From: Planctomycetota bacterium
GTDB taxonomy: Bacteria; Planctomycetota; Planctomycetia; Pirellulales; Pirellulaceae
Direction: 5' to 3'
DNA: 20,125 nt
Assembly (NCBI GenBank): GCA_026692885.1
Contig: JAPLNJ010000668.1
Span: 1 to 20,125 of the forward strand
The notes beneath the pieces are model-generated. The model was given only the letters and a program-made list of their open reading frames with translations. It ran no database searches and was not told the DNA's origin. Below are positions 1 through 18,300 of the stretch, piece after piece. The translations under genes were made by a program, and so were the position numbers. Numbering within the stretch: position 1 is the first letter of the stretch; every line of letters starts with the position of its first letter.

Positions 1-350
1 AACGAGGTGACGGTGTTCGTCAGCGTCACGGCCGTGGGCGGTTCGTTCACATCTACCACGGATAACACGGAGGACACGGATGCGTCGGGGGTGGTGCCAA
101 CAGTTACATCGTCAACGTTGACGGTCACGTGCAGCTGCGGGTGAGTCTCGAAATCGACGGTCTGGCCAGCCTTCAGGTACAGGCTGCTGCCGATGATCTC
201 GAACATCGCCATGTCGGGGCCGGTCAGGCTCAAGGTGTTGGTGCCCAGACCGTCGTCGGTTACCACGATGTCGGCGACCTTGGTCTGTACCTCGGTGTTT
301 TCGGGGAGTGTCGTCACGGTGTTCGTCAGCGCCACGGTGGGCGGATTATT
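1..350 (-). other. Cadherin repeats, start of a tandem array (partial)
   Basis: Residues about 6592-6707. The first repeat opens NNPPTVALTNTVTTLPENT and carries VVTDDGLGTNTLSLTG, FEIIGSSLYLKAG and the calcium-type VDFETHPQLHVTVNVDD, ending VVDVNEPPTAV. A second repeat begins VTLTNTVTSL at the window edge. The 'LxENT', 'DFExxxxxxVTVxVDD' and 'DVNEPP' motifs are canonical cadherin calcium-binding elements. DNA near 7-41 and 312-343 is nearly identical, showing recent or homogenised duplication. More repeats probably lie beyond position 1. Confidence 0.85.
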
Positions 351-3300
351 CGTTGGTTCGCCCACCGAGAAGGTGCGGCCGAAGATATCCAGGTCACCGC
401 CTGCGGCACTCTCGCCGGCCCAGACGGCGACGAGGGTGGTGCCCACAGCGGCCACGTCGGGGTCTTCTTGATCGCCAGCCGATGTGGTCGGCAAGGCGAA
501 CGGATCGGACTCGGGCGTCCCGTCGGCCTTGAATTCACGGGCTCGGACTTCGCGATCGGAACCGCTCTGCGAGAGTTCCGTCCAGGCGACTAGGAATCCG
601 CCGGTGGGCAGAATGGTCACCGCGGGTGCCAGCGGGACGACGGTGCCGCTCTGGTCCACGCGAAGTTCGGCGCCCACGGGATTGCCGTTGGCCGAGAATT
701 GCTGCGCCAGGACTTGCGTCGTGTCGCCCGCTTCCGAGCACCAGGCGACGACGAACGAGCCATCCGGTGCCACGGCGATGACCGGGGCGGTCTGGTCGCC
801 TTGGGCAGTGCCATTCACCATGACCGGGGCACCGATTGGCGTGTCGTCCGCCTGGAACCGGCGCATGAGGATCCCGCGGCCGTTCCCGTCGGTGCTCTCC
901 CAGGTCACGACGAACGAGCCGTCCCCCGCGCTGCCGACATCCGGGAACATGCCGCCCGCGCCGGTGCTGACCTCGACCGGCGGGCCAGCGACCGCATTGG
1001 CCTCGGTGAAGTGCCGGGCGAAGATCTTGTTCTCGTTCGCTGGCGCGAACGAATCCCAGGCGACCACGAATTCGCCCGAACCAGTAAACGCCACCGCCGG
1101 ATTGAAGTGGTCTCCATCGGCATCGCTCAGTTGCACCTGCTCGCCCACCGGCGTCCCGTCGCTGGTGAAGGCCCGAGCGTAGACATCCGACGACCCCGGC
1201 GTCTGTCCGCTGCCTGGCGCATCGTTTTGCCACGTCACCACGAACGCGCCCGTGACCGGATCCACTGCCACATCCGGAGACACCTGGACGCCCGCCGTGA
1301 TGTTGCTGATCAGGAACTCGTCCTTCGCGACCGTCCCATCGCTGTTGAACAGCTTGCCATAGATGCCGCCCTCGGCGTAATAGCTGCTCCATACAACCAC
1401 ATAGCTGCCGTCGTTCCTGAGCGCTACGGCCGGTTGCTCTTGATAGTCGGCGGTTGTGGTGTTGACGAAAAAATCGGATCCCGGCGATCGATCGATTGGC
1501 GATGCCATCGGTGCCAACTGAACCCATTGTCCGACTGTTTGCTGCGGCGCGACGACCGTCGGTTCCGCGAATGGAGTCCCCGAAACGTCCTCCTCCGGCC
1601 CTCCCGAAATCCTCCGCACCTGTGCTGTCGACACATCAACTGCCATGATCTGCACCGGCGTCACTCGGGTCCGACGTACCCCAACCGGAAGGCTCTCGTG
1701 CATGACCGTGTAGTCGTACGTGTCCGACAGACCGGCCAAGTGGCCCAGTTCATGCATAACGACGCTCAATAGGTCGACATGCCCGACTGCAGGGTTATTC
1801 CCGTCTTCTAGTCGCGACGCATAGAACTCCGAATCGTCCCACGGTGTGTCGTCCACAAACCAACCGTAACCACCGCCGTCGATATCGAACGTCATCGTGT
1901 TGCCCGATGTCTCCCCCAATTGTCCGCCGGGCAGGTCCGCGACCGTAACTAGTACATCTCGCCACGCATCAGGTAGGACGATGCCCGACTGGTCGATAAA
2001 CCGCTTAATGGCCTCTTCAACGAATGGTATAACTGAAGCGGTCGTAAGTTCCCCGCTAACGGCCACGGTAGAAAGCGAAACGGCTTCGTCGGTATCCTCG
2101 TACGGACGCGATTCTAGCACCAAGGGTGAAGCTGCCCGTACGGAAGCCGAAGTTGAGTAGAACATGGCAAAATCATCCCCAGCATACCAGGGGTGCTCGA
2201 TCTGGTTCCGCCATTTCGGTACACCGCCAAAATTCGAATCATAGAGATAATGTTCACCGTCGATATGCCCAGAATTGTCCTCGTAGTCATCATTGCACGC
2301 GCGTCCGTCGAGCTCCTTGGCATAAGCAAACACCTTGTACGTAGATGATTGGCTCTTTATCGCTTCGACGAACCCGGCTGCAAATCCCCCCCAAGAATAC
2401 TCGAAGTGATTTGAAGAAGCCATTCCGAAATAGTGCAAACCATCAGTCTTTGACCCGATGTACGTCCCCGCCCCAGGCATTTCAGGATTGGTCTTGAAAA
2501 CATTGTCAAGCATCCCCCCCGAAAAGCACTGCGCAAATATGTAGCTATTGTAGCCCGCCTTGACTTCGCCCAACATGCTCCGCAAATCAGAATCTGAAAT
2601 ATTGCAGCCACCCCACGCACATAGCATCTCTTCGTTCTTTGTATTTCTTGCCTTATCATAAGCCTCCTGTGCTGTCAATTTGGGGTACAGTTTGTCAGCG
2701 CCGAGGCCTGCGCCATGATCGTACGAATAGAACAAGAAGTAGTCGTGCTTCGTGACTCTCTTTGCTAGATCACCAAGAACAGCTTCCAAATTGTCTCGCG
2801 TCGCTTCATAAACAGGTGATGCGCCAGCGAACTGCATATCGGAAACTCCATTCGGACCCCTTCCATCGGCATAGAGAATAGAAATATTCTCCGCCGAAAC
2901 GTTTCCCTGCTTTATGAGAACGTCGTGGATATCCTTCAAGTTCTCGTAATAGCGTGGGTAGTTGAACTCCGGTTTGACCCCACCCATGAAGATCACGACA
3001 TAGTTCTGGGGCTCCGACACAACAACCGTATCCGCGAATCCAAAAGCTGCGAGACCGCCCTCGCCATCCACATCGATCGACATGGTGATCTCCGCTCTAG
3101 CAGACCCGTCTCTATGGTCGTTGAAAATTCCTTCAATATAGAACGAAATGTCAAGATCGTCGGCTCTCAAGCCCAGTTTGCTTGCTAAGTAAACACCAGG
3201 CGCCAAATAGCCGCCACCATCGGCTACTGGTTCCGGTTTCCGGGACACGCTTCCGTCAGTTGTCCAGATTCTTAACAGTCCTGCCTCGGGCTGAATGTTT

Positions 3301-6300
3301 ACTGCACTTGCCGTAGGAGGGGATGCGTCGTATTCGATTCTAACAAGGGCTTTGTCCCAGTCGATGCTTCGTGCAAGTCCCTGGGGAATCGTAATCCGTA
3401 TTTCGTCAAAGACCGATTTGCCATAGCCATTGTAATCTTGGTAATCCAAGACCTTATCCTTGTCTACATCTCCCCAATTTGCTGGAACGACGAGGCCTGG
3501 CAGGTTAACGCTCGCTTCATTCCAGTCGTCCTTCCCATTGACGGAGTTATCCATATCAATCACGCCGCTGTTGTTCGAATCAACGTCAAGGTCAATCGCC
3601 ATGCCTGATGAGGCGACGATCGCCTGCGTGCCGTTACTGTCCTTGACGTAAAAGGCCAACTCCCCGTGCTTGTTGATTGCGTCGTTGATCCGAATTTCTG
3701 AGATCGGCGTCGCCGAGACTTCAGGAAGAATCTTTCCAATCCCAAGGACGTAGGTCTCGCTGACATACGCAGGATTTAGGGGTGGAACGATATCGGGTGA
3801 CTGAGATTCGCCAGCCCATTCGAATTCGAGAGTGTACAACGAGTTCGTGTCGTAGCTGTCTTCTGTCATGAACGCGATTTGGTAACGATTAGGGGCAATC
3901 GCGTCGGCGGCGTCCATTTTGTTAATGGACAGATGCGAGTCGATCGGCGAAGATGCCTGCACCGACCCAACCGGAATAGTCTTGAATGGCCCGATATCAA
4001 GCTCGCCGGGGTCGAGTTCTGAATCTCCGTCAAAATCGACGACTATTGTCTCTCCGGGATCGAGATGTCCATCGCCTGTCTCTCCCGCGATTTTTGCCCA
4101 AGCGCCCGTCTTCGGGTCGGCGACAAAGAGTCCTCGTCCAAGGTCACTGTGTTCTCCAGTGAAGACAATCAACGAGCCATCGTCGGTAATACTGGGATAG
4201 GGTCCGATCTGGGTGAAGTTCTGCCCGGCGCCGATCGTCATCGGGGGAGCTGTCGGATTGTCGTACGAGAGAGCGTAAAGTGTGTTGTTCAAACTGAACA
4301 CATACCTTCCGTCATCGGCGAGTTTTGGGAAAATCTCTCGCGGGTCGGCTCCGCTTGGCAAACCGGTTGCCCATTGCGTAAATTCTGCGTCATGCAGTGC
4401 TGTCACAATATAGTTAACGTTGCCCTCATAGGTAGTGGCGCCGATGCCTCCGCCGGTCGTCCCCGTATAGACGCTTTCGCTGTCGTTGTTAATGGTCGAC
4501 CCGCGATAGACGATTTGGAAAGCATTGTTCGGATCGCATGGCGACGGCCAGGTGCCGCCCCAGACCGGGTTCAGGAACCACAGGGTGAGCAACTTAGGTT
4601 GGTAGTCAAATGCCGACGACATGCCCATCGCTGCACCCACCATGCCGGGCAAGATGCCCATCAGGCCACTGTAAAGCATGTCCGCAAATAGAGGGTTCCC
4701 CAGGGCTATCGATCCCACGGAGATGGTATCGGCGTCTCCCATTCCGTACACGGCTCTGGCCACACCGGACTCGCCACCGGTCCAGGTGTACCAGCGTTTA
4801 TAGAATGGCACGTTGATGGCCGGTTCTGCGCCTCTGTATTCATCAGCATTCCATTGCTCGACGTACGAGAATGGAGCGAGAGGGAGGTCGCCCATCTGGG
4901 CGATTGACATGGCCAAAAAGACTGGTCCAAATTGCCATGTGCCGATGAGGACTTTGTAATTGGAATTGCGCCAAGCAATGATCTCGTTCCCGTCATTGAT
5001 CTGCACGGAATCGCCAAATTGCTGGGATGGTTCTTCAGCCGGGTCCTTGGGTAGCGGCAGCATGAGAACCTCGTGCATGAGCGCACGAACCGCTTGACTC
5101 GTGCTCTGAAGACCGGGAGGATAGTAGGCAAAAACATTGCCCCCCTTCTCTCCGGCGCTTCCGTAGTCCACGGTCCCCGTAAACGCAATGACTCCGTTGT
5201 TGTTGATGGAAGGGCCGTTGCCGAGGGTGTAGTAGGTGGTTTCCCGACTGGTTCCCGGAAAGTCAATGGTCGTCGGTGTGCTCGTCTTTGCGACAGTGAG
5301 TAGTGCGTACGGACTTTCCCTTGCCTTGAGGACGACGGTTGCTGTTGCCGGGGCCGATGGGGTATTATGTGGATCCAATGCGGTGTAGCTAAATTCATCG
5401 ACGAGGTCGGCTCCCGCCGCGAGCAGTGCCTTTGTGGCGTCGGACAGAGTGGTTGGGTCGTACCTAAAGCCGCCGTCGATTTCTAGAGTGATGATCGCCC
5501 CTTCGGTACTGATAATCCAGGGCGTTGACACGTCGACCCGCAGTAGGGCTGTTTCATTCTGATCAGGGTCCGAGTCGTTTCGCAGCAGGCCCTGAAGGTC
5601 ATCGATGGTGAGCGACTTGTCATACTTTGTCGAATACGGACCGTCATTCCTGGCTACGGGAGCATCATTAACACCGCCAGTGTCGGGCAGTGGAGCGGTA
5701 AGTTGTCGAGAATTGGCTGACAAAGACGGAGACCGATTGCTTTCTCGTGTTCCGATGAAGATCTCGACGTCAGCAACCGCTTCGGAAATGGAATCGTGAA
5801 TCCAGTATTGGAAGTAGTCGGTGGTGGTCTCGTCGGCACCGAGCCAGTCGAGCTCTCCGTTGGGTTCGTACGTGAAGGTGCCGTCGGGGTAGATGGTTAC
5901 CTGGACGCCGAGTTGACTCGTGGTCGTTTGCGATACTTCCGTGGGGTCAAACAAGAACTCATCGGCTACCGGCGATTGGTTCGCCCCCCCTTCGTTCATG
6001 TAACTGAAGTCGTAGTACCAATTCGACTTGGCGAAGGCGACAAGTGTGTTTCCATCAATGTCGACATCGTTGTCCAGGAGGCCGGAGCCGATGAAGACCC
6101 GCTTCTCATACGCCCCCGCGAATTCATCGAACACGGCAATGGGCGCGTCGTTTCGCCCTTGCACCTGAATCGTAGCGGTGGCGAGGGTCGCTCCCCCACG
6201 CTCGTCTCGGAGCGTGAAGGTAAAGATGTCCAAGCCGGTTTGGCCGGGCCCGAGCGACTGGAAATAGGCGCTGGCCGTGTAAGCGAACGCTCCCGACTCG

Positions 6301-9300
6301 TAGATCTTGACGATCGATCCGTGTTCACTGGTCACCGTCTCGGCCGCGATGGATAGCTCGTCGCAGTACCCGGGAATCACGTCGACGTCGCTGGCCCCGT
6401 TGAATAAGCCACTCTGCACTGAAATCGCCGTGGTCCCGTCCTCCATCACCTGATACGGGGTCGAGGTGTACTTCGGCGGCAAGTTCTCTTTGCTCAAGAC
6501 GTGGATGCGGACCATCCCGATCGCGGCGGCTCCGTGGCGATCCTCCAGCGTGTACTGGAACGTGTCGTCGGCAGTTTCGCCAGCCTTGAGCGAGTCGAGA
6601 ACCGCGGAACGCGCCGGATCGTAGTGGATGACGTTGGCCTGTGCGTCGAAGGTGATGGTTCCCTGCGTCTGGGCCGTCGGGGTTACGGCGCTGATTTTGA
6701 GATGCAGACGGTCGTTGACGTCCGGATCGGTGTCGTTGGACAAGAGCAGCCCGACGGGGATGTCAAGCGTTTCGTCGGCGTAGACGTAGAGCGCGTAGAT
6801 GTTGTTGGCCGCCCCTTTGTCGGCAATGTCAGGACGTGCGATCGGGGCGCTGTTGACGCCCCGGATGGTCACGTCGACGAAGGCACTGCTGCCATCGCTG
6901 AGCGTATACGCGAAACGGTCGGTAACCGTTTCGCCCTGGCTGAGGCCGCCGTAGACGGTGCTGGACGCGGCGTAGGTGAACGAGCCGTCAGCGGACCATT
7001 CGATCGTGGTGTGCCAATCGGTGCCTTGGTCCAGGCTACGTACGACCAGATTGCTGCCCAGGTCATTGGCCAGGAGATTTCCCTGCAACGTCGCCCCTTC
7101 GTCCACGACGAAGCGGTCATAAAGGGCCGCGCCCGTGCCATCGACCGGCCCAAAGCTGACCGTACGCTCGACGCGAGTCTCGTCCTCGCCACCGGTGTGG
7201 GCCACCACCTCACACGAGGCTGCGCCGAGCCGTGTGGCGGTGTCGAAGCCGAAGGCGAGGGTTTCGCCGGAGTCGATCGCGGCGGTCAGCGAGTTCGGCG
7301 TCCAGCGGATGAATCCGTCGCCGGGTGAATAGTGGGACGACCATTGGGCCGGAGTGAAGATATGCGAAAGGGTCGTCGTGGGCGCGAGGGGAATGCGGAA
7401 CCCTTCGAGCGTCCAATCCATTCCAGTCGCCGAGGCGCCCGTGGTGTTGGTCAGCGAGTAGGTGTAGGTGTAAATGCCGCTCGTCGGATTGCGCGTGGCC
7501 GAGGCTGCCAGGTCGAACTCCGGGCCGGGATCGTACGTGAAGGCCAGCGTGACGGCGCTGGATTGGCGGCCCAATGCGTCAGACGCAATCAGGGTGACGA
7601 CATGGGCACCGGCCGCGAGCGGGGCGCCGTTGATCCGCTCCATCACTTCCGGTGCGAGCGTGAAGGAGTCGCCCGCAATAGAGGCCGAGACGTCGATCAG
7701 CGTATTCTGCGCCGAGGCATCGATACTCGCCGACAACGCAACCACGGGCGATGGCCCGAACAATTGGCCGGTGACCGTGGGGTCGGAGGTCAGGCCGTCG
7801 GTATTAGTACCGCCCAGGATCGCCGTATCATTGGCTAGTTGAACAGTGAGCTGTGGCTTGTCGTCCAGCAGGACCAGGGCGCCGAAATGGCTGATGTTGC
7901 CGGCGAGGTCCACCACGACTAAGTCCAGGGCATTTTGACCAACAGCCAGCGGGACGTCCTGCAGAACGAAGACGCCGAATGCATTGGCCTCACCCACGAT
8001 CTTGGTTCCAGAGATCGATATGACCGCGCCGGGTTCGGTGACGCCGGTCAGGTTGACATGGTCTTCCGTCGTATGGCCGTCGCCTTTGAGCTGGGTATCG
8101 GAGTCGTCGGACAGGCCGATGGTGAATTGAACCGTGGTGATCGGCGTCGTGTCGATGATCAGGTTTAGCGCGGGAGATAGCTCGCTGACGTTGCCTGCTT
8201 GGTCGGTGATGATGACCGTGATCTGGTGTGGATCCTCCAGCAGCTTAGGCAGTTGGACTTTCAGGATGGCTAACTCGGAAGACACTGTGCCGGTCAGGAG
8301 CTTGCCGTCGACGTACCACTTGACATAGTCACCGGCCTGGGCATCCACCGTCACCCAAGGGGCCGTAACGTTGGTGACACCGTCGTCGTTGTGCGGTCCG
8401 CGGTCGTACGCCTCGACGACCCGCGGCGCCGCCGGTTGGGGCGCCTCCCGATCCAGGGTGAAGAGGACGGAACCGAAGTTCGACTGGCCGAACTTGTCCA
8501 CGGCGTTGACCATCAGGTAGTGAACCCCGTCGGCGAGAGTCTTGCCGACGGGGAGCAGACTGGAAAAATCGCTGACCGTGAAGCGGAAATCAATCGGCCA
8601 GTCGGTCCAGGCGTCGGCGCCGTCGAGTTTGAGTCTCACCGGTCTCACCGCAGACAGGGCGCTGGCATCGGCGATAAGCACGTCGACCGTCGGATCGCTG
8701 GTCACCTGGTCCTCTGCGCTGGAGCCGGTATCGTGCTGCAGCGACAGAGTAATCGTGGGCGCGTCGAGGTCGTGCGTGGTGAAGGTGACGAGCGAGCGGC
8801 TCAGGTTTCCGGCCGTGTCGCGGGATTCGACGGTGAGGGGATTGTCCTGGGACTGCTGGTTGTTGAGGGTGAGATCGACGTTGGGGAAGGTGTAGTGGCC
8901 GAACGCATCGGCGGTGACGGCGGCGATTAGAGGGTCGGCGGCGGGGGAGGAAGAGGGGACGGATGCGGATTGGACGGATCTGGAGATCCATCCTACGTCG
9001 GATTGGACGGCTTCGGAGAGCCATCCTACGGAGGAGCCGTGAGTGCCGCGGTAGAGGTCGACGCGGGCGTTGGGTTCGGTGGTGCCGGTCAGATCGAGGG
9101 TCTGGCGAGTTGTGTGGTTGGGGCCGAGTGTGAACTCGGCGGGTGTTTGCGCCAGTTGCAAGGTCGGAGTCGTGGGCGGCGCTGTGTCGAGCACCATACG
9201 GAGCGGTAGAGCGAACTCGCTGATGTTGCCGGCAAGGTCCTCGGCGGTGGCGGTGATCAGGTAGGTGTTGTCGACCGAGAATGTGGTGCTCAACGTGATC

Positions 9301-12300
9301 GGGCCTGTGACCAACTCTTGGCTGGCGATCACTTGGCCGTTGGCGTACAGCCGGACCTTGGTATTCGGTTCGGCCAGCAACTGGAACGTCTGCTGCTTAA
9401 CGTAGGTCACGTTGTCATAGCGACTGGCCCCGGAATCGTCGGCGGTGAGCAGGTCGGGCGACGAGGGCCGCGGCGGGCGGACCGTGTCCAGCGTGAAGTC
9501 CAGCGTGGTGACTTCCGAACGCAGACCCTTTTCGTCCTGGGCGACGATCTGCACCCGGTGTTGGCCGTCGCGGAGCGTGCCGCCATTGGCCACCGCCAGA
9601 TCGCTCGGCGACAGCACGAATCGGCCCTCGGCGACGCGCGCCTTCCAGTCATAAGCACTCGCGCCGTCCACCGACACGAACAGGCCGGCGATCGAACTGG
9701 CGTCGTCGACAGTTCCGGAGAGGGTTGCGTCGTTGGTGATGCGGTCGGTGGCGGAAAAGCCAGCGTCGTGTAAAAGCGTAGCGGTCAGGAGTGGCGGCGA
9801 GATGTCGTCGGCCGTGCTGTAGACACTGTCGGAGACCGTGGCCGTGTTGCCGGCCCAGTCGCGGGCGATCAGGGTCAAGGCGTTCTGGCCGAGACTGAGC
9901 ATCACCGGGTCGAAGCGATAGACGCCGGTGGCGTTTGAGGTTGCGACGGCAATCGGTTGGGGGGTCGGGACGGAGTCCCAACCTACGCGGTAGAGTTCGA
10001 CCAGGATGCCGGAATCGGTCTGGCCGGTCACCGCCACGCGATCGCGGACCGTGCGGCCGGTGGCATCGACTCCCTCGAAGACCAGCGTTGGCGTGAGCGG
10101 AGTCAGCGTGTCGACGATGACCCGGTAGACCGCGGACTGGACGGCGTTGCCGGCCAGGTCGGTCACGGTGGACTGGAAGTTGTATGTCCCATCGGCGAGC
10201 GGGTCCAGCCCGTAGCCGACGTTGAACAACTCCACCTCGGAGGTGGCCCAACGCTGGGTGGAGACCGTCTGGCCGTTGTAGGTGCGATCCAACTGCACGA
10301 TCGAACCCGTTTCGCAACTCGCGACGAGCGTGAAAACCGAGCGGTTCGTGATGCCGTCGTGCGGATCCGGCCCGGTGTCCTGCGTGATCTGGCCGTCGGC
10401 ATACAGAGCCAGCGAAATCGGCGTGGGCGGCGCCAGCGTGTCCAGCGTGAACAAGAACTCGCGCGTGGCCGCATTGGTGAATTCATCCTCCGCGTACAAC
10501 CGCACCGTATGGACGCCGTCGGTCGGCACATGGCCCGTGATGACGGTCCAGCGCGCGGCGGTCAATACGAACTGGCCGGCGACGTCCAGCCAACCGCGGA
10601 TGTCGACGTTCGGATCCTGGTCGATGCCCAGCTTCAAGACGCTCAGCCCGTTTTCTTCGTAGACCTGTCCGACGATCGTGGGATCGTTGGTCACGTGGTC
10701 GTGTGGGTCGGGACCGGAATCGGTCTGCAAGCCGAGGATTCGAATGTCAGGGGCGTTCAGTTCGAGTCCCAGGCGGCGGATCGAGGTGGCCAGGCGGGAG
10801 ACGTTGCCCGCCGCGTCGCGGGCTTCGACGGTGAACGGATTGTTCCCCAGCTGCAGCGGCACGCCGGAGAAGCGGTATTCCCCGGAGACGGGATCGGCCG
10901 CGACGGGCGCCAGGGCCGTACCGGCCAGGCTGACGCTCGCACCCGGCTCGGTCTTGCCGATCAAGGTCACGGTGGCGTAGGTGGTCTGGCGATCGCCCAG
11001 CGTGTCGCCGGGTAACGTGCTGGAATCCGAGGCGGGGTCGAGATCGAACGTCGGACGCTTGGGCGGGGTGAGGTCCAGACGCACAATCAGTTCCCCGGAC
11101 CGCGGGCTTTCGTTCCCGGCCAGGTCGGACGTGGTGGCCGAGAAATGCAGTGTGCCGTCGGCAAATCCTAGGTTGGCGCCCGACAGTTGGCTCGCGCCGG
11201 CGTCGACCGCCGCGCGGAGCAGCGACCGGTCGTCGCGGTACAGTGTGACCAACACGCCACCGGCGCCCGTAACGCGGAACGTCGGCAGGGCGTCGGACGT
11301 CAGGTTATCGGCGTCGCTGATGCCCGTATCGCTTTCGGGCATCAGATCGGGCGTTCCCGGTGCGCCCGGCGCCACGGTGTCCAGCGTGAACGTGAACTCG
11401 ATGGGCAACGACGTGTTGTAGTGCACGTCAACGGCCGTGATCGCAATCGTATGCGTGCCGTCGGCCAGCAGACCACCAAAGTAACATTCCAGTTCGGCCC
11501 GCGTGAGCTGGAAGTAGTTGGACGGCACCTGGTACGTGGCACCGTCTTGCTTGCCCAACTCGCCGAAGGCGGAAATCCGCGCCCGACCGTCGAGCGAGAT
11601 ATACAGAGCACTGATCGCACTGGTATCGGACACGATGCCGATGATCGTGGGATCGTTCGTCACGCCGTCGGTGGCGGAGCTGCCGGTGTCCGCCTGGAGA
11701 CCGATCAGGATCTGGGGCGGTTTGATATCGGTGGTCCGCCCCTGGGCGGTGCGCCAGATGCCGTAGTCGATCGAGTCGATACGCCGATCGTTGTTCAGGT
11801 CGAAGATGGAACTGTATTTGGCGTCGCCGTAGCGGCTGGGATAGTGCAGCAGGAACGAATCGTAGTCCGCGTGGTCGACGGAATCTCCGCCGGAGAAATC
11901 GGCCACCAACTGGTGATACTCCAGCGTCAGGCGGCCATCGTTGGGATTGGTGTCGATATCGTTCAGGCGGCTGCCGGGATCGGCCACGCCCCGCACCCCG
12001 TCGATGACGAGGATCAAGGTGTAGTGTCCGTCCTCGACCTGGACATGGCTGGTGTCGATCGTGAGCGTGTACGTGCTCGTATCGTCGTCCGAGAGGTAGG
12101 TGTAGTTGTCCGCGGTCAGCGGGAACGGCTCGCCCGTGGCCGACGTGATGATCACGTCCTTCTCGAAGCCGTGGAAGAAATTTACGTCCTGGTTGAACTG
12201 CAGCGCGATCGTATGGATGGTCGAACGTTGGGCCTCGCCGTTGTTGACGACGGCTTTCTGGATCTGGACGGGATCGGCCACCACCGGGGTGACCAGCACG

Positions 12301-15300
12301 GAGATGGTGGCGAAGGCTGTCTTGCGTTCTTGCGTTTGTGTCTCCTGGGCGGTGGCCGACACGTGCAGGACGATTGTCTCGGTGGAGCCGAGTGGCGGGG
12401 TGATCGTAAGCCCGTCGAGTTGCTCCGGGGTCAGTTGGTAGACGGCCAGCGTCCCGGTCCGGGTCTGCGTGCCGGCCGACAAGAACGATCCGGCCGGGAG
12501 CCCGGAGATCTCGATCGTCAGCGTTTCGGAGCCGTCCGTGTCGCGTAGCTGGCTGGTGATGTCCAGCAGGATCGATGAATTGATGGTCCCGGCGACCGAT
12601 TTGGCCGACAGAATGGGCGTGTCGGCAACCGGGGTGATGGTCAGGGAGACGAGCGCTTCGCTGGATGTGTTGCCCGCGTTGTCGCAAACGGTGTAGGTGA
12701 ATGAATCCGCGCCCGAGTAATTGGCGTAGGGCGTGTAGGTCACGACGCCGGAGCCGATATCGACGGCGGCCGTGCCGTGCCGCGGTTGCTGGACGATCGC
12801 GACGCTGTTGCGATCCAAGGTGCCATCGGCGTCGGTGTCATTGGCCAGGACATCAAAGGCGATGGGGATATCTTCGTCGATGATGGCCGAATCGGGATTG
12901 GCGGTGGGCAGCGACGAGGAGTCGCGCAGGACGACGACATTGTCGATGCTGACCTGGCTGTCCAGGGCACCGAAGCCGAGCAGGTCGAAGTACAGCAGCA
13001 GTTCCGTTCCGGCGGCCACGCCGGTCAGATCGATTTCGACGACGATGGGGTGGTCGGCGCTGCCGAAGGGGGTTTCGGCGGTGATTCCAGTAAGGGTTAA
13101 GCGGCTGTGGTGGTGGACGGTGCCGTCGGATTGAATGGTGAGGATGGCGTCGGTGAGCGGGGATTGGGATGCGTCAGGCTGGAAAGCCTGACCTACGGGG
13201 GTCAGCAGCGATACTTGGAAGGCTTCGGTGGGCAAGGCGTCGGCGGTGTGCAGCAGGCCGCCGACGAGTTCGAACCGGAGGGTCGTCGCGCCGGCCGGGA
13301 CGAAGAAGCTCTGGCTCGCCGAGGAGATGTATTGGGCGTGCTCGCCCAGGACCAGCGTCCCTTGGGCCAGGCTGGTATTGCCTCGCAACCGCCAGCCGAA
13401 CGCCGCGGCACGCGGATCGACGACGTTGAAGTTGCCGTTGGCGATCGCCGTCGTGGCGATGTCCTCGCCCAGCGAGGGACTAGAACAAAGTAGCCCGCAC
13501 ACTCCGTGTGCGGAAATCGGCACACGAAGTGTGCCGTCTACTATTGAGGCAGACGGGCTGTTCGCCGGCGCCCTGCCAGCGCTGCCGCCAGTCGCCCCCG
13601 TCCAGTACGCCTGGTCCTCGCTGGAACGGAAGCCGTAATTGATCAGCAGAATGGCCTGATCGCTGACAGCAACGCGTCCGTCGCCGTCGAGATCAGCGGC
13701 GGCCAGGTAATTCGCGTCGACCGCGTTCGTCCCAAACGCCGCTGCGAACAATTGGCTGTCAAAACCGTCCACGCGGCCGTCGGCATTGATGTCGCCCGCG
13801 ACGCCGACCTCTAGTTCGTAGTCGCCGGGCTGCGCGGCCGCAATGCGCACCAGGTAACTGCCAGGCGAGCTGATCTTGAAAATGGCGAACACCTCGCGGG
13901 CGTTCGGATCCGCCAGAGCACCGGCCGGATGGACCCGCACGGCTCCCTCGACGGCCGGCATGGCTGGCCGGAAACCGTCGGTCGTGCCGAGCACGTGGAT
14001 CCGCACCCAGAGCTCACCACCGGCCACGCTGTCCAGTTGCTCTTGCGTGACATCGAAGGCATATAGATCGCCAGCCGCGCTGCTGGCCAAGGAACTGCTG
14101 TAGCGTTGACCGCTGCTGTCGGCGATGTTGCCCAGATTGGCCGTCAAACCGGTTACGGTGACGCCGCCTGCATAGAAGATGGCCCGATTGACGGTCGCCC
14201 CGGTCGAAACCCGCAGCAGGTGCGACTGCTGCGGATCGTAGCCATAGCTGTGGATCACTGTGGTAGCAGGCACAGTCCCTGTGCCGTCCGCTCCCGCACT
14301 CGGAGATTGCGGACTACTTTGTACCCGAATCAGATTCCCGCGCGAGTCATACGTGTAGTCCAGCTGCGTGCCGACCTGCGTGATGATGCTTTGCAGCCGG
14401 CCCGATGAATCTCGGTCGAAATCGACGTACGTGCCGTCGGCGGCGATCAGCCCGCTGGTGCTGACCTGGAGTGTCGTCCCGCCGGGCGTAATCTGGCGCA
14501 CGATTCCCAGCGTGGAATCAATCTCGTAGGCCGTACCATCCGGCCCGGTCAGCGTGTAATCGCTGCCCGCCAGCTTGGGATTCGCCGGATGGTAGGGCGT
14601 ACCGCTTTCGACCGCGTAATAGGCATGGCCGGAGCGCATCAACAGCGCGTCCACCGACTGCAGGGTGTAACCGCTGGTGGTGTCGACCGCTTGCCAGGCT
14701 GGCCGATAGTAGGTCACGCCGGGAACCTGGAAGACCACTTGCGGCTGGAACCGGAACTTGATTCGCTCGCCGGTCGGCGTCGTCAGGTACAGTGCCGAGC
14801 CGTCGCTCAGCGGCGCGTAGATGCCGTACACTTCGCGGCCCGTGTTGGGAACGTCCAGCTGCAGGTCGACGTCGCGGATGGCCAACTGCCAGCCGTAGCC
14901 GCAGCTGCCGGCCAGGTCTTGGGCGGTCGAATCGTAGGAACGGCGGATCGCGATCTGCTCGCCTCCCACGGTCACCAACAGATCGGTGGCCACCTCGCGA
15001 TAGACGCCGGCCGTGCTGGTCGAGGCAATTTCGAGGACCGTTTCCACTGCGTTGTGCCGGTTGCCGAGATCCTCGGCCGAGAGGCGTAGCCGATAGAAGC
15101 CGGCGGGGAAGGCGGCCGGGTCGAGCGTGAAGAGCGCTGCCGAACTCACGACCGATTCGCCGCGAGCCAACGGCACGAAAGCTTCCGTGCCCAGCCGGGC
15201 CAGTTCCAGCGTCCAGTAGTCCAGGTTCGAGTCGGTCACCGAGCCCAGGATCTGCGTGGCGGTGGACAGCGCTGTGCCGGCCAGCCCTTCCTGCAACACC

Positions 15301-18300
15301 AGTTCCGGTTTCTGGTTGTCGCTGGGGTCCAAGACCTCGATCACCGAGCTTTGCGAATTCTGCCAGCCGTCCACGTCGGTCGCGGCGACCGTGACGTGCA
15401 TTTTGCCCGGCTGCACGGCCGCTCGGACCGTGGCAAAGCCGTCTTTGTCCAGGGTGTACTCGACCCCGGCGACGACCAGGTGCACGGAGGCCGGATCGAT
15501 ATCGGCATAGCCGTTGACCAGCACCTGGAGCGTGACCGGAGTCAGCGGGTTGACGGCCCAACTGGGCGAGCGGACCACGGTGATTCCCGGCAACACGGGC
15601 GACAGCGTGGCGCTCAACACGATCGATTCCGAAGTCGTGTCCGTCCCGTCCGAGACGTGCAGCCGGACCACGTGTTCGCCCAACTGCCCGGCGGTCGGCG
15701 TCCAGCGGAAGAGTCCCGTGGCCGGGTCGAGCGTCGCCCCGTCGGGCAAGCCGCTGGCGGAATAGGTCAGCGTCGTGCCGGCATCTGGATCGGTGGCCGC
15801 GACGGTGAAGGACAAGGTCTTGCCGAGCTGGACCTGGTGGTTCGAGTTCTTGACGATTGGGGAAAAGTTCACGTTGTCGATATACAGCGCGACGTCCAGC
15901 GTGTCGGTAGCTCCGGCGGCGTCCTGCACCTGGAACGTGATCGTGTGTAGCCCCGCCTGATCGTAGCCCGGGCTGACGCGGAACAGGCCCTTTTTGATCT
16001 CGCGGTCGGGGGAATAGGATCCGGGCGCCAGGTCCGTGCTCAGCACCGACCAGGTCAGCTTGTCGTAATCGTCCGGATCGCCGCCCACGACGGCGAATTG
16101 GACCGGATAGCCTTCGCGGCCGTATTGCAGCGGGATGGGCACGATTCGCGGCGGGCGATTGACATCGGTTACCGTGATTGCAAACTTCCGCACGACCTCG
16201 GCGATGCCGTCGCTGACCCGCGCGGTGATTTCGTCGTACTTGCCTGACTGATCGTACCGCGGCGTCCACGTAAACAGCCCGGTGCGGCGATCCAGGCTGG
16301 CGCCGGCGGGCAGCGAGCCGGCATCGATGTCATAGGTCAGGGTCTGCCCGTCCGCATCGGCGGCCAGGGCGGCGAAGTTGATCGTCAGCGGCTGACCCTC
16401 CGCCACGGTCGGATTCGAGAGGAGGCTGAAGGTCGGGGCCGAATTCGTGTTCAGCACGGTCAGCGAGAAGCTCAGGCTGGCCTCGCGGACCAGGTACAAC
16501 CAGCCGTTCCCATTGTCGCGGACGGTGATCTGCACCTGGTGCGGCCCCAGATCCTCGGCTGCGGGCGTCCACCGCAGGCGTCGCTGGCCGTACACGCCGG
16601 TGGACTCGAGCGCCGCGCCGGCGGGCAGCCCGGCCAGCTGGAACGTCAAGTCACTCTGCTCGAAATCGGCGGCCTGGAGCAGCGTCTGGAACGCCTGACC
16701 GACCAGGGCCACCCGATTGTTTTCCGGTCGCACGGTGGGCGCGAAATTGGCGCTGTCAAACGTGACGATGAAGGTGTAGGTACACGCGAGACTGCGGCGC
16801 GCCCCTTCACCGTCACCGTCGTCGCGGGCGACGACCATGATGGGATGGTCGCCGGGAGTCGCCTTGGCCGGATCGAACGTGAGCGTGCCCGTGCCGTCGC
16901 CGTGGTCGACGAACGTGACGAAGTCGGGCAGCGGATAAAACGGAAGGCCGTTCTCGGCCGACAGCACCAGCGGATTCCCGTCCGCGTCGGTCGCCCGCAC
17001 CTGGCGGGTCAAGACCGTCGGCGCCGCGTCCAGATCGACGGTGATGTTCGCGATGGCGTCGATCTCCGGGCGATGATTCAGGTGGGCCACGTACAGCGGC
17101 ACGACCATGGTTGTCGTCAAGCCGCCGGCGCCGAGTTCCGTCGCCTGGAAGGTGAGTTGCCGTGCTCCGACGTCGTCCTTGGTCGGGGTCCAGCGGAACT
17201 CGCCGGTCTGCGCGTCGAAGGTCGCTCCCGTCGGCAGCCCCTCGACCACATAGCTCAAGCTGGCCGCGGTGGTGTCTGGCTTCGAGAGCGAACCATCGGG
17301 CAAGCGGAACTGGGGCACGTAGGTCGGGTTGTCCGGATCGAGGGCAAAGACCTGGAAGTAGATCGGTTCTTCCTCGTACGCCTGCCAGGAGCCAATCGGA
17401 TCGAATACCGGGGCGCCGTTGGCATCGAGCACGGTCAGGACCATGGTCCGCGTGGCGGAGCCACCCTTGTTGCTGATCGTGAACGTCAGGTTGTGGACGC
17501 CGGCCTGAGCGTAGCCCACCTCCCACTGGAACAAGCCGCTGGTCGGGTGAAGCGAGGCGCCGGCGGGCAGGGACTTGCAGGAAAAGACCACGGCATCGCC
17601 GTCGGGATCTGCGCCGTCCAGATAGAACCGCACGACATCCCCCTCGCGCACGGTCAAGTTGGCCGGCTTGTTCAGGACGGGCGGCTGGTCGGACTCGCGG
17701 ACCACCAGCGAGGTGGTCATGACACTCTCGCGGTGCCCGTCGCTGACGTGCAGCGACACATTGGGGTAGACGCCGGCCTGCAGCGCGCCGATGTCCCACA
17801 GCAGCGTATGCGTGGCGAAGTCGAACTCGTCGCGCGGGATGGCTGCCAGCTGCGGCGCATGATTCCCGCCGACGACGGTGATGGTATAGGTCAACGTCGC
17901 GCGAGCGCCGCGGTCATCGAAGGCATAGACGGTGACCGGGACCGTGTCGTCGCAGCCCGCGGCCGGCAGCCACTGGATCAGCCCTGTCTGCGCGTTGACA
18001 GACATGCCGTCCGGACCGTCCGCCAGCAGGAAATTCAGCCGCGAACCGTCTGGGTCGTGCGCCGCGATCGTCGTTTGGTACAACGTCCCCACCGTGGCGG
18101 CTGTCGGGGGTTGGGCGTCGATGACCGGCGCCTGATTCACGGTCGGGGCGGCGAAGAACGAGAAGGTGTAGTCGACCCGATCGAAGTTCAGCACGTCGAT
18201 CGTCACCGTCACGGCGGTAGTCGACTGGCCGGCGCGCAGCCTAGCTCCGCCGGCGAGTTGCCCGGCCAGGTCGATCAGATAGCGTCCGTCCGTCAGCGGT

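Follow-up and report, generated by a model that had tools for sequence, protein, structure and literature searches.

The window analysed in this study is a 20,125-base stretch of DNA from a Planctomycetota bacterium of the Pirellulaceae (contig JAPLNJ010000668.1, assembly GCA_026692885.1), and one giant open frame on its minus strand contains six short palindromic elements, bounded by GTAG, that are translated as part of the protein. These elements are very probably planctomycete repetitive extragenic palindromes (REPs) of the GTAG type that entered the giant gene over time, the survivors being those arrivals that kept the frame and fell in linkers or loops. A sequence-only reading of the same DNA had claimed that at least six REP-like palindrome copies are translated inside the gene, and the six elements found in this single minus-strand frame, between 8.97 and 14.32 kb, bear this out. 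The four peptides that it quoted, with the cores given below for A, B, C1 and C2, were correct, and D and E are translated too. The count of six copies holds as six elements but not as copies of one family, since at least three families and eight hairpins are involved. The frame and the elements are as follows.

3..20123, minus strand: giant open frame of 6,707 codons, spanning the whole window and open at both ends.
14263..14317, two strands: element E, an outward-facing hairpin dimer with halves at 14294-14317 (minus) and 14263-14286 (plus).
13490..13541, two strands: element D, an outward-facing (head-to-head) hairpin dimer with halves at 13490-13513 (plus) and 13518-13541 (minus).
13196-13173, minus strand: element A, GTAGGTCAGGCTTTCCAGCCTGAC, a GTAG hairpin with an 8-bp stem, translated VGQAFQPD.
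9986-9963, minus strand: element B, a GTAG hairpin translated VGWDSVPT, of unproven insertion.
8972..9029, minus strand: element C, a tandem of two GTAG hairpins (C1 and C2), translated VGWLSEAVQSDVGWISRSVQ.
9029-9005, minus strand: C1, a GTAG hairpin translated VGWLSEAV.
8996-8972, minus strand: C2, a GTAG hairpin translated VGWISRSV.

An unpaired GTAG stands at one end of the stem-loop in A, B, C1, C2 and both halves of D, and the repeat unit of the C1/C2 tandem is 33 bases. D and E carry GTAG at both outer ends, and their minus-strand translations are VDGTLRVPISAHGVCGLL and QSSPQSPSAGADGTGTVPAT, respectively. E fits the GTAG REP form only in part, its left half (14294-14317) being decayed and its right stem having 7 bp. 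In PMC3733652, the GTAG REP super-family is described with the same GTAG tail and short stem-loop, as singletons and outward dimers, mostly intergenic with some copies in open reading frames and translated, and it is recorded in the Planctomycetes-Verrucomicrobia-Chlamydiae (PVC) superphylum, including Planctomycetes. The head-to-head dimers of this super-family are matched by D and E in the window and by pairs of A in related genomes. The peptide VGQAF at residues 1141-1145 was considered as a further element and rejected, as there is no GTAG hairpin there.

For the chance tests, a strict GTAG hairpin was defined as a stem of at least 8, a loop of 3-7, no mispair and at most one G-T. The giant frame contains six strict hairpins (A, B, C1, C2 and both D halves), and E lies just under the threshold, missing the stem limit. 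Synonymous-codon shuffling, repeated 300 times, gave a mean of 0.36 strict hairpins and a maximum of 3; codon-order shuffling, also repeated 300 times, gave 0.30 and 2. When the elements were folded as single-strand DNA, 0-3 of 200 dinucleotide shuffles matched the fold of each element, with a folding z of -7.2 for D. Neither a strict hairpin nor a copy of A, C or D/E was present in 31 homologous-gene loci, of which some overlap, and the 80 homologue loci searched for the elements held no family copies; matches to A with 3 mismatches in two of these 80 (L069 and L079) were weak and were taken as chance. The difference between six observed hairpins and 0.36 under synonymous shuffling argues against the explanation that the peptides are ancestral and the hairpins a by-product of codon choice, which also has to account for the homologues described next.

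The giant-frame protein has putative Ig, cadherin-like, PKD, dockerin and Big_13/Big_6 domains (Pfam), and its element sites were compared with a homologue set of P0002 and 11 further proteins, the usable number of which varied by site. P0002 was 36% identical to the window protein and collinear with it across residues 2-4329, a span that includes all five element sites. Compared with P0002, the window protein has six inserts that are 9 or more residues long, three of which fall on E (15 residues), D (16 residues) and C (39 residues). For three or more overlaps of the five element sites with inserts, random placement gave P = 0.0007. An assembly artefact, in which unrelated contigs were joined at repeats, might be suspected because REP copies are repeats, but it is extremely unlikely, given that the protein and P0002 are collinear for 4,329 residues, through every one of the five sites, and that the frame stays open.

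At site E, all 12 aligned homologues were 8-17 residues shorter than the window protein, and L266 and L270 had other extra residues just upstream. Four more proteins were aligned at this site, of which three were 15 residues shorter and one, P0042, had a displaced gap. At site C, 33-39 residues were missing in all eight aligned homologues, P0002 included (39), with L267 aligned there via a neighbouring repeat. In one preparatory homologue search with the C domain, the window itself was the sole match. At site D, P0002 has a 16-residue gap, for which 8 additional residues close by make up in part, and the linker was of variable length among the other homologues. None of the aligned homologues shared an insert with the window gene. 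The absence of the E stretch from homologues, together with most or all of that at C, is a further point against ancestral peptides.

A, C and D/E are GTAG REP families dispersed among planctomycete genomes. In the order of G006 (a Planctomycetaceae metagenome-assembled genome, locus L028), A or a near copy was found in 14 of 296 genomes, with exact A in 10. The five richest genomes held 57, 40, 38, 17 and 13 copies of the A pattern, and the reversed control pattern of A gave no match in the same 296 genomes. Element A of the window is thus letter for letter a dispersed element of other genomes, which again is hard to reconcile with an ancestral peptide. Pairs of A on opposite strands, 28-86 bases apart, recurred in G409, G418, G433, G539 and others. 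Together with G291, from a sample across the phylum, these 14 genomes make up the 15 A-bearing genomes. The G291 copy of A reads VGQAFQPD within a 953-codon frame that runs off the fetched stretch at either end, and a looser A pattern was found in one of nine genomes in the order of G291 and in two of 29 in its class.

The other families were sought in the same 15 A-bearing genomes. The D/E pattern was present in six of them, with 325 copies in G419 and nine in G409, and the right half of E, GTAGCAGGCACAGTCCCTGTGCCG, was exact at two places in G409. The C pattern was present in two (ten copies in G539, two outward pairs among them, and a single copy in G425) and a stricter C pattern in one; outward C dimers were also seen in L316. 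B had no match in these 15 genomes, so that many dispersed copies were not found for B. In the IMG/VR database, B-like hairpins occurred in contigs such as L303, which was the only possible dimer when the flanks of 12 stretches with B-like hairpins were compared. A loose A pattern retrieved 18 IMG/VR stretches, with exact A in L087 and L101 and near copies in L093, L094 and L095; the remaining stretches appear to be unrelated hairpins. The suggestion of the sequence-only reading that the palindromes are mobile therefore agrees with the dispersal of A, C and D/E in relatives, and is unproven for B, where there are 4-5 extra residues only.

A REP-associated tyrosine transposase (RAYT), which that reading had proposed to look for, was found in the form of a RAYT-type gene bracketed by A in one relative.

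L203:2081-2839, genome G543: RAYT-type frame (P0039) of 253 codons.

Dimers of A lie directly before and after this gene, and the P0039 frame runs into the downstream element, its C-terminus consisting of VGQAFQPD and QAGKPDL peptides. Read by eye, the translation contains NHVHVLL, with its HVH, and YIENNPV, with its tyrosine; an HUH motif and a catalytic tyrosine are the defining motifs of RAYTs. The Y1_Tnp match of P0039 had an E of 5.6e-7 and 30.1 bits, against a cut-off of 23. In its HVH, the tyrosine of YIENNPV, the Y1_Tnp match and the REPs on both sides, P0039 resembles RAYTs with flanking REPs. It differs in that its sole NCBIfam match, NF047646 (REP-associated tyrosine transposase), scored 56.6 bits, below the curated cut-off of 80, and in that the comparison with PDB sequences gave no match up to E 1.

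P0039 or its relatives (E <= 1e-20) were found at 15 loci in 14 of the 296 genomes; in most of the 296, only 9 candidates were scored. At eight of these 15 loci, GTAG hairpins flank the gene on both sides at a distance of up to about 200 bases, and most of them have a stem type of their own; two loci had close GTAG hairpins on one side and five were without them. In G450, a C-like hairpin stands on both sides of a P0039 relative (L328). RAYT transposases are thought to move palindromes as single-stranded hairpins, and, judging from the literature and this gene neighbourhood, several REP families may have entered the giant gene in such a way at different times. The arrivals that survived would be those that kept the frame open and lay in the linkers or loops of the repeated domains. 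Y1_Tnp matches were present in all 15 A-bearing genomes, but also in five of 14 control genomes. P0039 was considered as an explanation of A in all A-bearing genomes and was rejected, as it showed no cross-genome correlation with A. Six Y1_Tnp loci in the same genomes (L165, L167, L168, L169, L174 and L178) have other GTAG hairpins, several on both sides, and the stems of these hairpins are unlike those of A, C or D/E.

Several results weigh against the entry of REPs into the giant gene. The copy counts rest on relatives of the host and not on its own genome. No copy of A with 2 mismatches or fewer occurred in any of the 14 genomes behind the planctomycete homologue loci, and A with at most 1 mismatch was found in only one (G291) of 392 genomes sampled across the phylum. 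A P0039-type protein occurred in only two of the 14 A-bearing genomes, G543 and G425. Furthermore, the clean length difference expected of a simple insertion was absent at sites A and B. At site A, the length was equal within one residue in seven of eight usable alignments (L271 and L273 were misaligned there and were excluded from the count), and P0002 was 4 residues shorter. As the loop length is unchanged, the element replaced loop residues. At site B, all eight homologues were 4-5 residues shorter and kept RGxD, with YRGxDS in five, and the B peptide may therefore be partly older than the element.

The common RGxD with a difference of 4-5 residues at B, and the lack of a net length change at A, are the observations that favour ancestral peptides. 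Compared with the shuffles, the identity of A with a dispersed element and the homologues lacking E and most or all of C, however, they leave that explanation very unlikely. The sequence-only reading had asked whether aligned orthologues lack the elements at these sites; such an absence held for E and for most or all of the C insert, and did not hold clearly for A (no length change), B (possibly in part shared) and D (a linker of variable length).

The position of the REP families relative to genes was studied in 60 loci fetched from eight genomes, namely the A places listed first (for the richer genomes), every C place listed and the nine places of D/E in G409. The fetched G419 loci happened to contain another seven D/E copies. 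With status assigned by a home-made codon model and not by a gene-caller, 73 of the 91 classified copies were intergenic, 14 were intragenic and 4 lay at contig edges. The intergenic, intragenic and edge counts were 51, 10 and 3 for A, 10, 0 and 1 for C, and 12, 4 and 0 for D/E. The result was in agreement with the earlier statement that such repeats are normally intergenic. Random positions in the same loci under the same rule were intragenic in 793 of 1210 cases, compared with 14 of 91 copies, indicating that the copies are depleted in genes.

G409 was exceptional in its unusually high intragenic share (12 of 25). Its two kinase loci, L204 and L207, have near-identical insert regions and hold four of its twelve intragenic copies. 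By domain layout, the solid intragenic cases were the kinase L204, with the element within the Pkinase match; L298, with the element between PSCyt2 and PSD1; and L219, with the element after an Eco57I match and a weak methyltransferase match further on. The weak cases were L216 and L220 (118 codons), both among the four intragenic D/E calls, and for another of these calls, L217, an N-terminal extension is possible. L212 and L081 had no Pfam matches. In-frame VGQAFQPD was also found in other genes of G291, G409 and G539, and in-frame DGTRSVPAT in other genes of G409.

Of the six reading frames in which A can be translated, only three stay open, giving VGQAFQPD, VRLESLTY and QAGKPDL, as the GTAG brings in a TAG and the right arm a TGA. 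The ten intragenic A copies read as VGQAFQPD or QAGKPDL. The stop-codon filter accounts for most of this frame bias, and no function need therefore be assumed. An alternative would be recruitment, in which the peptides or the messenger RNA hairpins were selected for a useful loop, slower translation or message stability. The reuse of the same few frames and of one kinase loop, and the good folding of the hairpins, would suit it. Nevertheless, recruitment is considered unlikely, since most of the frame bias is what stop codons would produce anyway, the copies are depleted in genes overall, and no insert of the window gene is common to the aligned homologues. The entry of REPs as probably neutral, tolerated inserts is preferred, and the proposal that the palindromes are a source of new loop peptides is right only in this sense, no benefit having been seen.

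The most surprising result lay outside the window, among planctomycete-type Ser/Thr kinases (P0050-P0169), where all the insert-bearing proteins share one insert loop. The kinase set consisted of the best 120 of 8000 homologues of the G409 kinase domain, and inserts of at least 8 residues relative to the insert-free P0053 were present in 35 of 119, all 35 in the loop before GRPYFVM, although the query itself bears a loop insert and may favour insert-bearing matches. This loop presumably joins strands beta4 and beta5. Among the 104 kinases that could be parsed by motif, 34 had at least 10 residues in the loop and 70 had four. A-type peptides were found in this loop in P0050, P0051, P0066 and P0073, and D/E-type peptides in P0072 and P0113, whereas 28 of the 34 long loops matched no family tested. 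P0066 has a second insert outside the loop, and P0079 has another A-like peptide. The G409 kinase was identical over the searched region to P0050 (Pirellulales bacterium), and the eight of the 120 listed kinases with an organism name were all from planctomycetes. The DNA of the insert was seen for L204 and L207 only.

Tentatively, Pirellulales and planctomycetes related to them could draw loop peptides continually from RAYT-moved palindromes of many unrelated families, an extension that is considered plausible rather than probable. Such palindromes would enter few open frames and accumulate at few structural safe sites, for instance the linkers in giant proteins with Ig repeats and a single loop in Ser/Thr kinases, with different families landing there independently. 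If the kinase-loop pattern holds at the DNA level, the choice between tolerated debris and new protein parts becomes testable on dozens of insertions at one site.

The evidence that GTAG REPs lie within the window gene is good, and the process itself is already known from other bacteria. In PMC3733652, intragenic REPs were described in 2013 for several species, O. terrae having the majority of the intragenic GTAG repeats, and it was suggested there that the insertions may be neutral, being in linkers or loops. The Rickettsia palindromic elements (RPEs), for which that source cites Ogata 2002 and Claverie and Ogata 2003, likewise give new peptides from in-frame palindromes in genes. The RPE tag is given there as CGTC, whereas the window elements carry GTAG and are thus not RPEs by this tag; also unlike the RPEs, element A adjoins a RAYT-type gene. 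The literature titles and abstract beginnings searched made no mention of such inserts in giant proteins or kinases of planctomycetes. The gene is a clean case of mobile hairpins turned into protein sequence, with empty sites seen in its homologues and, in a relative, a gene of transposase type beside A.

Other features of the giant-frame protein were also noted. The closest protein piece was P0040 from Candidatus Anammoximicrobium sp., with 68% identity across 40% of the 1001-residue query; its alignment stops at residue 1901, short of site E. Together with the match of the G409 kinase to P0050, it suggests a host of Pirellulales type. RHS repeats (PF05593) are annotated in four homologues (P0041-P0044). 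HELGHLAGLSD at window positions 1722-1754 is a zinc-protease-like motif with a sub-threshold matrixin match. YSYDHGAG...AQCFSGG at 2514-2729 had no caspase- or legumain-type match in Pfam, and in our view it resembles a caspase or legumain-like core. Homologous stop-free frames in related genomes reach up to 13,995 codons (L243, G625).

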